DNA of 35,600 nucleotides from Candidatus Dojkabacteria bacterium (GTDB taxonomy: Bacteria; Patescibacteriota; Dojkabacteria; SC72), in assembly GCA_012842045.1 (NCBI GenBank), contig DUTP01000002.1:1-35600 (forward strand), written 5' to 3'. The translations under genes and the position numbers were made by a program. This document shows positions 28,129-33,317 of the stretch, piece by piece. The notes beneath the pieces were generated by a model. It did not search any database and had not been told where the DNA came from. It saw only the letters and a program-made list of their open reading frames with translations. The first letter of the stretch is position 1; every line of letters begins with the position of its first letter.

Positions 28129-28689
28129 ATGAGCATATTTGTTGGCTTTTTTCCAGATGATGAAATTAAAACAAAAATAGCTACTGTAGTAGTAGGTGTA
28201 AAGGATGTATTCAAAGATTTAGGAATTAATGTTAGATGGAGTGAAGCAGGAAAGTACCATGTAACATTACTTTTTCTTAGTGCTGATACGTCACCAATTA
28301 AATTACTGTATTACAAGTTTCTACTTAAAAAATTTAGTTTTAAGAAGTTTAAGATAAGATTTAATTCTATAAAGTTAGGTCTCTCAAGAAAATTTAGGCA
28401 ATTAATATATCTAGATTTATTGGAAGGTGGAGAGGAGATGAGAGGACTATATTTAACACTCAAAAAACTCTTGAAAAGTAAACAGGATATCAATTTCATT
28501 CCACACCTTACACTAGGAAGAGTAAATAAAGATGTATCACAGCAAGAATATTTGAATATAGTGAAAGATTTAAATGTTCTTACTAAAAAACTAAAAGTAA
28601 GTGATATCTCTTTTTCGGTGGATAGTATAGATTTAGTTAAATCACAGGATGGAAAGTATTCAGTTGAAATGAGCATTTCTAGTTCTTAG
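28129..28689 (+). CDS. thpR: RNA 2',3'-cyclic phosphodiesterase / 2'-5' RNA ligase family
   Basis: 186 residues of the 2H phosphoesterase superfamily. The two catalytic HxT motifs are YHVTLLFL (H44, T46) and PHLTLGRV (H126, T128), separated as usual. SIFVGFFPDDEIK is the family's N-terminal strand. ThpR opens 2',3'-cyclic phosphates and can ligate tRNA halves in vitro. It begins four bases after serS, and its stop overlaps the convergent miaA stop by 11 bases. Confidence 0.9.
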   Translation: MSIFVGFFPDDEIKTKIATVVVGVKDVFKDLGINVRWSEAGKYHVTLLFLSADTSPIKLLYYKFLLKKFSFKKFKIRFNSIKLGLSRKFRQLIYLDLLEGGEEMRGLYLTLKKLLKSKQDINFIPHLTLGRVNKDVSQQEYLNIVKDLNVLTKKLKVSDISFSVDSIDLVKSQDGKYSVEMSISSS

Positions 28690-29581
28690 GGATTAAGGTT
28701 TTCAAGAATATCTTTTGATTTTTAACATAGATAATATTTTTGTTTCTTCTAAACCAAGTTCTCTGTCTTTTAGCATACTGCTTTGTATGGGTAATTATAT
28801 CTTCCCTTATTTCATCCAAATCTTCTTTCTCTCTAAATTCCCTATATCCAATACTATTTAGAGCAGGATATATATCTAATCCTTCCTCTTTAATCTTTTG
28901 ATTCTCTTCAATTAGACCTGATTTGAACATTGCATCTACTCTTCTTACAATATTTTTCTCTAATTTATCTTTTGGTATATCTAAGAAAAAATATCTATGT
29001 TCTAACTCTGGACCTTTCTCAATACTAGGTAGAGACCCCTTAAGAATTATTTGAATTAATCTATGTGGGTTATTTTGATCACTGCTGTTTAATTTCGTTA
29101 ACTTCTCTTTTCCAACAATGTTTTGTAATTCTGTAATATCTAAATCTTCTAACTCACTTCTTTCTTTTCCCAAATTTTTCTCTTGTTCTTGAAGTTTGTA
29201 GTTAAAAACAACAGAATCTATGTATAGTCCTGTACCACCAACTAATATTGGTGTAATGTCTTCTGGTAATTCTTTTAGTATTTTAAAAACATCTTTCTGA
29301 TATCGATAGAGATTGTATTCTTCTTTTACACTAATGTACGAGTAGAGTAGGTGTGGAATGTTATCGATATACCAAATACCATTCCTTATTTCCTCAGGAA
29401 CAGGTTTTGCTGTACCAATAGAAATTTCTTTGTAGACCTGTCTTGAATCAGCATTGATGATAACTCCATTTATATGTTTTGCTAACTCTAAAGCAACAGA
29501 AGATTTTCCACTAGCTGTACATCCAGCAATCACAATTATTGGCTTTTTACGATATTCTGTTTGTTTTGAGACATTACCCAT
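28679..29581 (-). CDS. miaA: tRNA dimethylallyltransferase
   Basis: Adds the isopentenyl group to A37 of UNN-reading tRNAs. 300 residues, normal length. P-loop GCTASGKSS (20-28), NADSRQVYKEISIGTAKP, DNIPHLLYSYISV, VGGTGLYIDSVVF, NPHRLIQIIL and the C-terminal TKQYAKRQRTWFRR are all characteristic; the usual DSMQVY reads DSRQVY. It is the last gene of the minus-strand operon and its start overlaps the SecF-like gene by 8 bases. Confidence 0.96.
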   Translation of the reverse strand: MGNVSKQTEYRKKPIIVIAGCTASGKSSVALELAKHINGVIINADSRQVYKEISIGTAKPVPEEIRNGIWYIDNIPHLLYSYISVKEEYNLYRYQKDVFKILKELPEDITPILVGGTGLYIDSVVFNYKLQEQEKNLGKERSELEDLDITELQNIVGKEKLTKLNSSDQNNPHRLIQIILKGSLPSIEKGPELEHRYFFLDIPKDKLEKNIVRRVDAMFKSGLIEENQKIKEEGLDIYPALNSIGYREFREKEDLDEIREDIITHTKQYAKRQRTWFRRNKNIIYVKNQKIFLKTLIPKN

Positions 29582-30098
29582 TTTTCTGTTTGAAAAAAAG
29601 TGGGAAAAGGAAGTAATTTACCCAAGTGGTAAGGATTATTATTACACTAGTAATCAAAATGAAAGTAGTAGCTGGTTGATTTAGGAAAAAGATTAGTGCA
29701 AGACTCATTAGAGTAACAAATATTGAGATTAAGAAAGAATCTTTTAGAAATTCTTTCTGTAATTTCTCAACATTGATGTTCTTCATCATTTTCTTTGATA
29801 TGAAAAATCCTACAGACATGCTGATATATATGAAGTTGATTACAAATACTATAATTGGGGTGAGTTGGAAGATATATGTGATTTGAATTTTGAAAATAAT
29901 ATTAGCTAGAAGGAGGACGAGTGTTGTGATAATGGTTGCTGCTGTAAATGAAGTGAGAGTGAAGAATATATACTTCTTGTTTCTTATCAATATCCAGATA
30001 CCTAGGAGAATGGCTGCTACTATGAGCAAGAACATTAAAGTTAAACTGATTTTTTGATACCAAGTCCAATTGTAAAATATATGTTTAAACATTCCCAT
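29574..30098 (-). CDS. Small polytopic membrane protein, possible reduced SecF-like
   Basis: 174 residues with five transmembrane helices (about 17-38, 43-68, 75-100, 119-139, 143-168). The order of helices and of the loop SKKMMKNINVEKLQKEFLKDSFLISIF parallels the C-terminal half of SecF, where an IREN-type loop precedes a conserved TSL-rich helix. It lies 11 bases after a SecD-like gene, where secF normally is. It lacks the SecF periplasmic domain, the first helix with its following Gly-rich motif and the conserved Asp and Arg of the proton path. The assignment is tentative; an unrelated membrane protein is possible. Confidence 0.5.
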   Translation of the reverse strand: MGMFKHIFYNWTWYQKISLTLMFLLIVAAILLGIWILIRNKKYIFFTLTSFTAATIITTLVLLLANIIFKIQITYIFQLTPIIVFVINFIYISMSVGFFISKKMMKNINVEKLQKEFLKDSFLISIFVTLMSLALIFFLNQPATTFILITSVIIILTTWVNYFLFPLFFKQKNG

Positions 30099-30109
30099 AT
30101 TATCTTTTT

Positions 30110-31357
30110 CTAAATTCTTTTAATATTATCTAAATACCAATCTGTGAGTAAGTAGGCTAGTTTTGAGAAAGCAATTAATGCAATCATTGCTTGAGCAAAG
30201 AGAGATAGGAAACCGGTACCTAAAAGTGCAATTATTCCAAAAACTACAACACCTCCAATAACTAGTAGTAACTCTGCATCTCTGTTCTCTACAATAGCAA
30301 GTATAAATATTGAAATTAGAACTAACTGTACTGCAAGTAGGAATGTATCAACAGGAATATGGGATAGTTTAAGGTATGAAAGGAAGAATGTAATTGTAAG
30401 TAGTGTTGTTAGGAATGATGTGATCAATGTCTTCTTGGATCGGTGTTTGAAGAGTAGGAGATAGAGATATGTTGTGATAATTGCAATACCGAAAGATAGA
30501 GTTAATTTAACATGGTCTAATTTAATCATATTAACATCTAAACTCTTCTCCCCTTGTACTGAATATTCAACAGGTATCTTACCAGATGTGTAAAGAATTC
30601 TAAGAGCTTTTGTTTCTTCTTCTGTTTCTGTATAGACAGGTATTGTAATATCTGGAGTAGCAGTCATTTCTTCTGAGAATTCAGGTACAAGGAAAGGTGT
30701 TACAAAGAAGTCAATTTGCATACCTACAATCTGTCCTTGATTTTCTTTAAGAAAAGTTCTTAACTCTTTATCTTTACTCTGTTTCTGTTTAAAAACTGCA
30801 AAGTATCTATATTCTCCATCATTTGTTCTAAGTTTGTTTTTCGGTATGTATACATTTCTAAACATATCCCAATCTAAATCTGTTGGATTGTAGTTCTCTC
30901 CAAATATTATGGCATATGGATTCTCCTCATCTTCGAAATTAACCTCATCTTTTCTAGTTACAATTTTGTAATAGTGTCTGGTTGATATTAATTGTTGAAC
31001 TAAGCTTTCTTCTTTTGAAGTGTTTACAGTAACCTTTAATATTGATGTTTCTTCATCTCCTTCCTCTGTTCGTATTGCAACTCTTTCGACACCAAATCTT
31101 TTTAATCTTCTAAAAAGAATTTCTTTTGTTTTATTTATATCTTTCTTTTCTTTTGTATCTAAGACAAGGTTATATTCCTTAGACCAGTATTTTGAATCTT
31201 TAGTGTTAAGATTGAAAGTTACTTTATCTGATATCTTTTCTGTAAGAGGTAGTGCTACAAGAAGAGATGTTATGAATATTGCTGAAAGTAGAGTAAGTAG
31301 AAAAGACTTTAAGAAAAGTTGCCAATTAGGTTTTTTAAATCGAATTTTCAATTTCAT
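30110..31357 (-). CDS. Divergent SecD-like membrane protein
   Basis: 415 residues. One N-terminal transmembrane helix (about 15-36), a large external domain with RRLKRFGVERVAIRTEEGDE resembling the SecD P1 fold (RVDxLGVxEPxI), then EETKALRILYTSGKIPVEYSV, which matches the SecD stretch preceding TM2, and five further helices (about 284-303, 308-327, 336-356, 364-384, 388-406). The end LLGTGFLSLFAQAMIALIAFSK aligns with the SecD FFGTGP...GFA block. SecD uses a transmembrane Asp (VDANVLI) to couple the proton gradient to protein export; here that segment reads LVLISIFILAIVENRD, and the cytoplasmic loop is lost. Ancestry is likely; classical function is doubtful. Confidence 0.7.
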   Translation of the reverse strand: MKLKIRFKKPNWQLFLKSFLLTLLSAIFITSLLVALPLTEKISDKVTFNLNTKDSKYWSKEYNLVLDTKEKKDINKTKEILFRRLKRFGVERVAIRTEEGDEETSILKVTVNTSKEESLVQQLISTRHYYKIVTRKDEVNFEDEENPYAIIFGENYNPTDLDWDMFRNVYIPKNKLRTNDGEYRYFAVFKQKQSKDKELRTFLKENQGQIVGMQIDFFVTPFLVPEFSEEMTATPDITIPVYTETEEETKALRILYTSGKIPVEYSVQGEKSLDVNMIKLDHVKLTLSFGIAIITTYLYLLLFKHRSKKTLITSFLTTLLTITFFLSYLKLSHIPVDTFLLAVQLVLISIFILAIVENRDAELLLVIGGVVVFGIIALLGTGFLSLFAQAMIALIAFSKLAYLLTDWYLDNIKRI

Positions 31358-31359
31358 TT

Positions 31360-31935
31360 CTAGAGTAGGTCAGCTATCTGTCCAAAGAGAACAATTTTAT
31401 CATTTTCAAGGACATTTATTAAGAAAGGTTCTTTTTTCTTTCTAGCAAAGTCAAAATCTTGTTTTGTAATTGCACTAAAGCGTAAATTTCTATCTAAGTC
31501 TTTCTCTAGTTGCACAACTGCAGCTAGTAACTCTTTTACTTTCATTGTACCTATGAACAAGAAGTCTATATCTGTATCTTCTTCGTGTTTTTTGTTTTTG
31601 ATAAAGTTGTCAGTGAGAACGATTACCTCTATCCCTTCAATGTCTTTTGTGATATCTAAAATAGCTTTGCCAACTTTAGATTCTTTATAGAAAATAGCTC
31701 TTAAATCCCAAAGGATAGGGCACTGTTTGTTTACTCTGTATACAACCTTGTTCCCTTCTTTCTTTGATTTGAGAATGCCTGCCTTTTCTAGGTTAATTAA
31801 TTCTCTTCTTACAGCATTAATCTCTTCATCTAGTAATCTAACCAAAGCTCTTACATGATATGCAGAATCAATATTAGACATATACACATCTAATATGCTA
31901 ATTCTCACTTTAGAAATGAAAAGGTTCTTTAACAT
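31360..31935 (-). CDS. Winged-helix regulator fused to a degenerate nucleotidyltransferase-like domain
   Basis: 191 residues. Residues about 8-70 form an ArsR-like winged helix (YHVRALVRLLDEEINAVRRELINLEKAGILKSKKEGNKVVYRVN). Residues about 85-190 resemble the MNT-type minimal nucleotidyltransferase fold: the D-x-D strand is TDIDFLFIGT (D122, D124), but the preceding GS loop reads LTDNFIKN, so catalysis is doubtful. Such wHTH-NTase fusions are common in archaea and CPR as putative regulators. An SD-like AAAGGAAAG precedes the ATG. It sits 2 bases before the SecD-like gene and may regulate this operon. Confidence 0.75.
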   Translation of the reverse strand: MLKNLFISKVRISILDVYMSNIDSAYHVRALVRLLDEEINAVRRELINLEKAGILKSKKEGNKVVYRVNKQCPILWDLRAIFYKESKVGKAILDITKDIEGIEVIVLTDNFIKNKKHEEDTDIDFLFIGTMKVKELLAAVVQLEKDLDRNLRFSAITKQDFDFARKKKEPFLINVLENDKIVLFGQIADLL

Positions 31936-31955: not shown

Positions 31956-33233
31956 TTACTGCTCTATTATATCAAATTTCCCATCAGATTGGGAAATGGC
32001 AGCAATCCATATTCTTCCTCTGTTAAATTTCATTGGTGCGCCAGAGCTGTCAAAAAACTGAGTTCTTTCTGTTCTAGAACCTTTTTTCCACTTACCATTA
32101 ATAACTTTTCCATCTAGAAGGTAAACAGCATCTCCTTGTGATATTGTATCTATCACTATTCTTGCAGTACCATCAGTAGATGGACGAGTATTTACTTTTT
32201 GTATTATTACATTCTTTGCATAAACCTGTGAGTTTGTTTCTTGATCAGCATCTATTACTCCACCAATCTTTCGTAAATATGAATTTGTGTCAGGGTCATA
32301 TGTCCATATGGCATCATATTTTCCTGAATTATTTAATCTCATATGGAATACAGTCTTAACCATTGTTTTCTTTCCTCGTTCTTCATTTTTGGCATCATTT
32401 TTAAATTCATATCCTTTTATATCAGGGAAAGAATCCCAATTTTGTCTCTTAGCATACTCCCAAGCATTCTTGATAGAGTTATATTCGTTATGAGGAGCAT
32501 ATCTTCTTCCATCATTCCATCTCCATGCTCCAATTGTTGAAATATCTTTAATCCCATATGCTCCAACATTTCCACAGGCATTTGCTCTTGGGTCTGTACT
32601 CTCAGCACAACCATCCCTTATCAGTAGAGGGTCATATTCACTTGCCCATTCCAAGTAGTATTGTCTGAGACTTCTTACTGGGCCAACTTTCTCTGGAGCA
32701 GAACTCCAAAATATTCCTAAATATCTAGTAATACCTGCTTCTGCGTTGGTTTCATAGACGATATCTGCACTGTTTAAACCAGATTGTGGTCTAGCTTCAG
32801 AATGATTATTAATCATCACTGCAACAGGTCTTCTTTTCTTTAGTACATCCATCTCTTTTTTTGTAAAGAGTAGTCCATTTAGTGGACTTTCTTCTGTTTT
32901 GGGTTCTTTGGGTTGTGAAAGTAATGGAAGCTTTCTTTTTGAAGAATCTGATTGCGATATTATGTATCTAGAATTAAACTTTATTACATTAGAAGGATGT
33001 GTTGGTTTTAATTTGTATATTCCAAAGTAGTAAAAAGCTACAATTCCTACCAGTGTTAAAATTGCAACAAGAGGAAAAGCAACTTTTCTAAGTATTGGGT
33101 GTTTCTGTTTTTTCTCTTCAGTCTTTTTTTTCTCTACATCTTTTTGAGGTTTTGTAGTAACAGTTTCAGTCTTGTTTTTACCAATGTTATTATCGACTTC
33201 TTTTCCATCTACTATTTCAACAACTTTTGCCAT
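31956..33233 (-). CDS. Membrane-anchored DUF3048 (YerB-like) protein
   Basis: 425 residues from the ATG at 33233; the longer track start uses a TTG. A charged cytoplasmic N-terminus is followed by a transmembrane anchor (about 50-72), then the DUF3048 region: RPVAVMINNHSEARPQSGLNSADIVYETNAEAGITRYLGIFW, KVGPVRSLRQYYLEWASEYDPL and, near the end, DTISQGDAVYLLDGKVINGKWKKG. DUF3048 proteins such as YerB are lipoproteins or anchored envelope proteins whose mechanism is unresolved. First gene of the minus-strand operon. Confidence 0.88.
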   Translation of the reverse strand: MAKVVEIVDGKEVDNNIGKNKTETVTTKPQKDVEKKKTEEKKQKHPILRKVAFPLVAILTLVGIVAFYYFGIYKLKPTHPSNVIKFNSRYIISQSDSSKRKLPLLSQPKEPKTEESPLNGLLFTKKEMDVLKKRRPVAVMINNHSEARPQSGLNSADIVYETNAEAGITRYLGIFWSSAPEKVGPVRSLRQYYLEWASEYDPLLIRDGCAESTDPRANACGNVGAYGIKDISTIGAWRWNDGRRYAPHNEYNSIKNAWEYAKRQNWDSFPDIKGYEFKNDAKNEERGKKTMVKTVFHMRLNNSGKYDAIWTYDPDTNSYLRKIGGVIDADQETNSQVYAKNVIIQKVNTRPSTDGTARIVIDTISQGDAVYLLDGKVINGKWKKGSRTERTQFFDSSGAPMKFNRGRIWIAAISQSDGKFDIIEQ

Positions 33234-33317
33234 ATGAATATAGTAGCACAAATGTTTGGTATTTCAAATGGATTGTGCTACTATTTTAATAATAAGTTAA
33301 ATTATATATAGAAGCTT

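Follow-up and report, generated by a model that had tools for sequence, protein, structure and literature searches.

A Reduced SecD/SecF-Like Pair Lacking the Proton-Coupling Residues in an Order of Candidatus Dojkabacteria

In one order of Candidatus Dojkabacteria the ancestral secD-secF slot now holds a reduced pair of membrane proteins, which is a real, conserved variant of SecDF. The pair was studied in a stretch of DNA of 35,600 nucleotides (contig DUTP01000002.1, assembly GCA_012842045.1), in the following referred to as the window. According to the published model of SecDF, the P1 domain binds the chain emerging from the channel, and proton flow moves and resets P1 (PMC6028853). Within the pair, the residues of the proton wire are gone and the P1 region is the best-conserved part. 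The pair is probably derived from secD-secF and still at work at the Sec translocon, without proton coupling, and on balance we lean towards the wider statement that Sec export throughout an entire bacterial order relies on a SecDF naturally uncoupled from protons, in which P1 has stayed under selection after the loss of the wire, the cytoplasmic loop and P4. Among the papers searched, none describes a reduced SecDF from Dojkabacteria.

Locus and Gene Order

The genome to which the window belongs (736,648 bases, Candidatus Dojkabacteria) is estimated to be 93% complete; the nearest named record is JAGPFQ010000001, with 96% identity over the 415-aa protein. Both open reading frames of the pair are found where an earlier note on this DNA had placed them, on the minus strand: the reduced SecD-like protein of 415 aa at 30110..31357, and the 174-aa five-helix membrane protein, which is in secF position and is a putative SecF remnant without P4, at 29574..30098. 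The order on this strand is DUF3048 protein (31956..33251), ArsR-like HTH protein (31360..31935), 415-aa protein, 174-aa protein and miaA (28679..29581). The intergenic distances from HTH through miaA are 2, 11, and minus 8 bases, the last figure being the overlap of miaA with the 174-aa gene, so these genes probably form one transcription unit. Nearly every genome of the order has miaA 3' of the pair.

The DUF3048 and HTH genes were used as synteny anchors. In three genomes of a family of the same class, f9, the order is DUF3048 - HTH - complete secD - complete secF, with the HTH gene directly upstream of secD and with products of 447–463 aa (SecD) and 294–299 aa (SecF). The DUF3048 protein of the window is 32% identical to its f9 counterpart (E 1e-50), the HTH gene is matched exactly once in each of 55 of the 59 relatives, and HTH and secD are adjacent beyond the class as well, in two genomes (L128, L129). 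Because the secD-secF genes of f9 and the pair have the same DUF3048 and HTH neighbors, the pair is in the ancestral secD-secF slot.

Two further observations concern the surroundings. The ArsR-like HTH protein has an N-terminal winged helix and, in its C-terminal part with a DxDxD-like stretch, a candidate nucleotidyltransferase; its gene, with one match per genome in almost all of the class, adjoins secD in separate CPR lineages (loci L128, L129, L133–L135). Near the start of the window, 28 kb away from the pair, are queA (partial) and tgt (37–447 and 1131–2198); in E. coli the yajC-secD-secF genes come after tgt, and the resemblance is probably a coincidence.

Descent of the 415-aa Protein

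Judged from its sequence, the 415-aa protein is a divergent SecD by descent. References for the comparison were TIGR01129, PF21760 and PF22599 (P1 domains), PF02355 and the T. thermophilus SecDF structure 3aqp. With hhalign, a 35-member profile of the reduced family aligned over 360 columns with one built from 32 SecD proteins (98.8% probability, E 7e-17), which bears out the proposed colinearity from TM1 to TM6. Hydropathy analysis gives six segments in the domain order TM1, P1, five TM helices. The secD model TIGR01129 is matched by 7 of 22 diverse family members (best E 1.1e-6) and an archaeal SecD model by 2 of them (best E 9.2e-6). When the 22-member profile was run against the entire PDB, the P1 domain of T. 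thermophilus SecDF came first (3aqo, E 0.033), and both P1 halves were colinear with the reduced family. The same profile, run against 380 genomes of the phylum, gave strong matches in the window's family alone, the other families of its order having been found by a separate search of relatives; the matches elsewhere were weak, and in 13 of the 13 genomes for which SecD coordinates were at hand they fell in SecD. A more divergent family of the same order, f5, matches both SecD (E 1.1e-9) and the reduced family (E 8e-19).

It should be noted that the distance from known SecD proteins is large. The 415-aa protein of the window does not match TIGR01129, and neither in its own genome nor in the sampled family members does any protein exceed the curated cut-off of this model (244.4 bits). 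Searches of Pfam and NCBIfam with the window's proteins yielded no useful model, every curated cut-off being missed; matches to HlyIII and similar Pfam families were dismissed as weak membrane-protein noise. Because the protein lacks the proton-coupling feature and stays below the curated cut-off, it is left out of the proton-coupled SecD functional family. A single-sequence structure model (pLDDT 43.9) was too poor for use. The SecD-like proteins of family f3 (L049, L050) are, with 504–515 aa, longer than the rest, that of L050 having a long N-terminal extension ahead of TM1.

Loss of the Proton-Wire Residues and Retention of the P1 Region

In the joint alignment, TM4 of the 415-aa protein (residues 337–358, 30284..30349, minus strand) is equivalent to the SecD helix with VDANxLIFER, which contains D340 of T. 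thermophilus. In 15 of 15 reduced sequences there is a gap that runs from mid-TM4 (GMAVDANxLIFER) into the cytoplasmic loop, whereas the TM4 aspartate (T. thermophilus D340, E. coli D519) is present, by the same measure, in 100% of the SecD set. The absence of this aspartate and of the loop following it, reported in the earlier note, is thereby confirmed, as are the numbers given there for the three coupling residues, which are correct by alignment to 3aqp: D340 is part of VD(A/G)N, D637 of (V/I)xD(T/S) in SecF and R671 of L(N/S)R(S/T) in SecF. Family f9, whose SecD and SecF are complete, retains all three. Column analysis of the SecD-like helices revealed no conserved charge inside them, the sole exception being D337, where TM4 begins on the extracytoplasmic side. 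The motif DLxGG at the start of P1 is also missing: the family reads FDLxxKxxxYW, with no GG, and Sec_GG (PF07549) is unmatched.

The most conserved residues of the family are those of the P1 region. The P1-head motif (residues 208–221, 30695..30736, minus strand) has the consensus GxxxGVxIDGFVTP, its counterpart in SecD being GKPIGIxLDGKVxxxP. Among the residues invariant in 22 members are G212, D216, V219, and P221 of GVxIDGFVTP, G259 in the segment LYNSGxIP (LNAGALP in SecD) and R84 in the segment RLxxFGVE. Taken as a whole, the 415-aa protein is like SecD in having TM1, a P1-like domain and five further helices, all in colinear order, and in its setting (downstream of DUF3048 and HTH genes, in a genome with a translocon), but unlike SecD in the absence of the TM4 aspartate, the TM4–TM5 cytoplasmic loop and DLxGG.

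The 174-aa Partner and Its Relation to SecF

Wherever the contig is long enough, the SecD-like gene is followed by that of a partner of about 145–210 aa, and this holds for five of the five families of the order. The partner has five predicted helices, comparable to TM2–TM6 of SecF. Its likeness to the C-terminal half of SecF, which had been proposed from the window, is upheld for helix number and gene position but not for sequence. The probability obtained with hhalign is 1.5%, the similarity is not above that of control SecF profiles (reversed, locally shuffled or block-permuted), and the NCBIfam model SecDF_plasm is matched by 2 of 24 partner members (best E 0.048). That the periplasmic domain is missing, as proposed, is evident from the five helices, which leave no room for P4, and the transmembrane Asp and Arg of SecF (D637, R671) are indeed gone, the column analysis having revealed no conserved charged column in the helices. 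The partner differs from SecF (PF02355) also in the lack of TM1, with the exception of f5.

The partner in f5 has one more helix at its N-terminus and matches TM2–TM3 of SecF weakly but in register (E 0.0026 in a single comparison), and is possibly an intermediate in the loss of TM1 and P4 of SecF. The pair to which it belongs (L100, L101, in genomes G035 and G039) is the most diverged one. A three-sequence structure model of the 174-aa protein (pLDDT 53.5) was too poor for use, and a fold search of the PDB with it gave nothing below E 1.

What ties the partner to SecF is its position and topology, because sequence similarity is no better than with shuffled profiles. By these two features it is plausible that the partner is a SecF remnant; that it is an unrelated replacement of secF is the less probable view, to be reckoned with nonetheless.

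Distribution

The pair is found throughout one order (families f1–f5, about 38 genomes). Sequence similarity revealed the SecD-like protein in 36 of 59 relatives, and gene position revealed it in a further two (G035, G039), always as an open frame. Two genomes assigned to the window's family, G017 and G021, are without the HTH gene and without the pair; G017 also stands alone in the family in having rotary-ATPase subunits, and it may be a mixed bin or represent a different lineage. In G042–G044 and G046–G056 (L087–L099) the HTH gene is present, no SecD-like gene comes after it and PF02355 finds no match, and for this reason SecDF seems to have been lost altogether from the majority of the remaining families sampled in the class. 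There are thus three states in one class: complete SecDF (f9), reduced SecDF (one order, f1–f5) and, in most other sampled families, none found, by which is meant no PF02355 match and no SecD or SecF beside the anchor gene. A published survey, in which every CPR class has members with a complete Sec complex (PMC9166423), fits the complete SecDF of f9.

Function of the Pair

SecA, SecY, and YidC are present in the window's genome. The pair is SecD-derived and without the proton-coupling residues, and the suggestion of the earlier note that it is not driven by protons is very probably right. The same note had thought of a repurposed system; conservation of the P1 region and the ancestral gene order point instead to a Sec role that has been retained and simplified. 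Since P1 is kept and the proton residues are gone, the simplest reading is that of a passive holder or Brownian ratchet, and most likely the pair acts as a passive holdase or ratchet at the exit of the Sec channel. The P1-like domain would bind or hold the chain leaving SecYEG, which would prevent back-sliding or help folding or hand-over; the energy would come from SecA and ATP, so that the pair would be powered indirectly, and the 174-aa protein would be the remaining membrane half of SecF, serving as a scaffold for the SecD-like helices.

SecYEG and SecA suffice for transport across the inner membrane (PMC8669966). In E. coli, SecDF becomes locked in one form when the proton pair is mutated, and SecDF D519N is similar to SecDF depletion with respect to outer-membrane protein maturation (PMC8669966). 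Since proton-pair mutants are locked in one form, the reduced pair must use a P1 that is either fixed or freely moving, and a SecDF without the wire must work differently. The D519N variant has in common with the reduced pair that the proton wire is disabled and P1 retained. However, D519N is a laboratory point mutant with a depletion-like effect, whereas the change in the reduced pair is natural, larger and selected across an order.

The SecD-derived protein could also have left the Sec pathway for another role in the envelope, the 174-aa protein then being a lineage-specific partner that replaced secF. Such a departure would agree with a partner whose sequence is not above chance with respect to SecF and with a divergence so large that no curated family cut-off is reached. 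We nevertheless consider it unlikely, for the P1-region motifs are the best-conserved part, the secD-secF position is kept, the translocon is present with no other SecDF, and the f5 partner has its extra N-terminal helix and its weak in-register match to SecF.

Far less probable is that the pair is still ion-driven, via residues other than D340, D637, and R671 or by a different ion. Relatives of SecDF driven by sodium are known: a passage in PMC6028853, citing Ishii et al. (2015), mentions such paralogs in marine bacteria. Going by that passage, theirs is also a natural change in energy coupling, but there the ion was swapped, whereas here the coupling residues are gone. Many members of the reduced family do have a K or R close to the cytoplasmic end of TM4. 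Against ion coupling stand the absence of a conserved acidic residue in the SecD-like helices and of a conserved charge in those of the partner, and the failure to detect rotary-ATPase subunits and H+-PPase in most pair-bearing genomes. In the window's own genome neither subunits a and c of a rotary ATPase nor an H+-PPase were detected, and the two subunits are missing from nearly all of its family. The searches for a and c agree in that both find the same 13 of 59 genomes, including all three with complete SecDF.

An association between the loss of the proton wire and the loss of the proton pumps searched for, rotary ATPase and H+-PPase, is suggestive, but it is loose rather than strict, and the genomes are related and not independent. 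A strict link is weakened because F-ATPase subunits a and c occur in two pair-bearing genomes, G037 (C31) and G038 (C21), the only ones among about 38, and an H+-PPase occurs in three genomes of family f2 (G032, G036, G041). Loss of the proton-gradient machinery as the simple cause was rejected on account of these five genomes.

The alternative offered in the earlier note, that the pair assists a complete SecDF encoded at another place in the genome, is rejected. At an estimated completeness of 93% a gene could be missed; however, PF02355 is without a match in the window's genome and in 31 other genomes of the family (32 of 32, several of them 97–99% complete), TIGR01129 likewise finds no complete SecD in the window's genome or in the family members sampled, and the secD-secF slot is occupied by the pair itself. 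As no complete SecDF was found in the genome, the pair is not an auxiliary.

Equally improbable is that the genes are decaying into (near-)pseudogenes of secD-secF, as fast divergence and trimmed domains might suggest, since no match among relatives contains an in-frame stop codon, the tight spacing is kept in an operon-like block, and the pairwise dN/dS values against two relatives (SecD-like protein 0.11–0.12, partner 0.06–0.13, rough for the more distant relative, where dS is saturated) are like those of the neighboring DUF3048 gene (0.08–0.11). The pair is under purifying selection and in use.

Significance

What SecDF contributes beyond proton-driven pulling is unsettled (PMC6028853, PMC8669966). 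With the P1 region kept and the motor residues lost, the reduced pair is a natural case of separation of function, in which this question is directly testable. If a proton-uncoupled SecDF does serve the translocon throughout this order, then P1 would be useful independently of the proton cycle.
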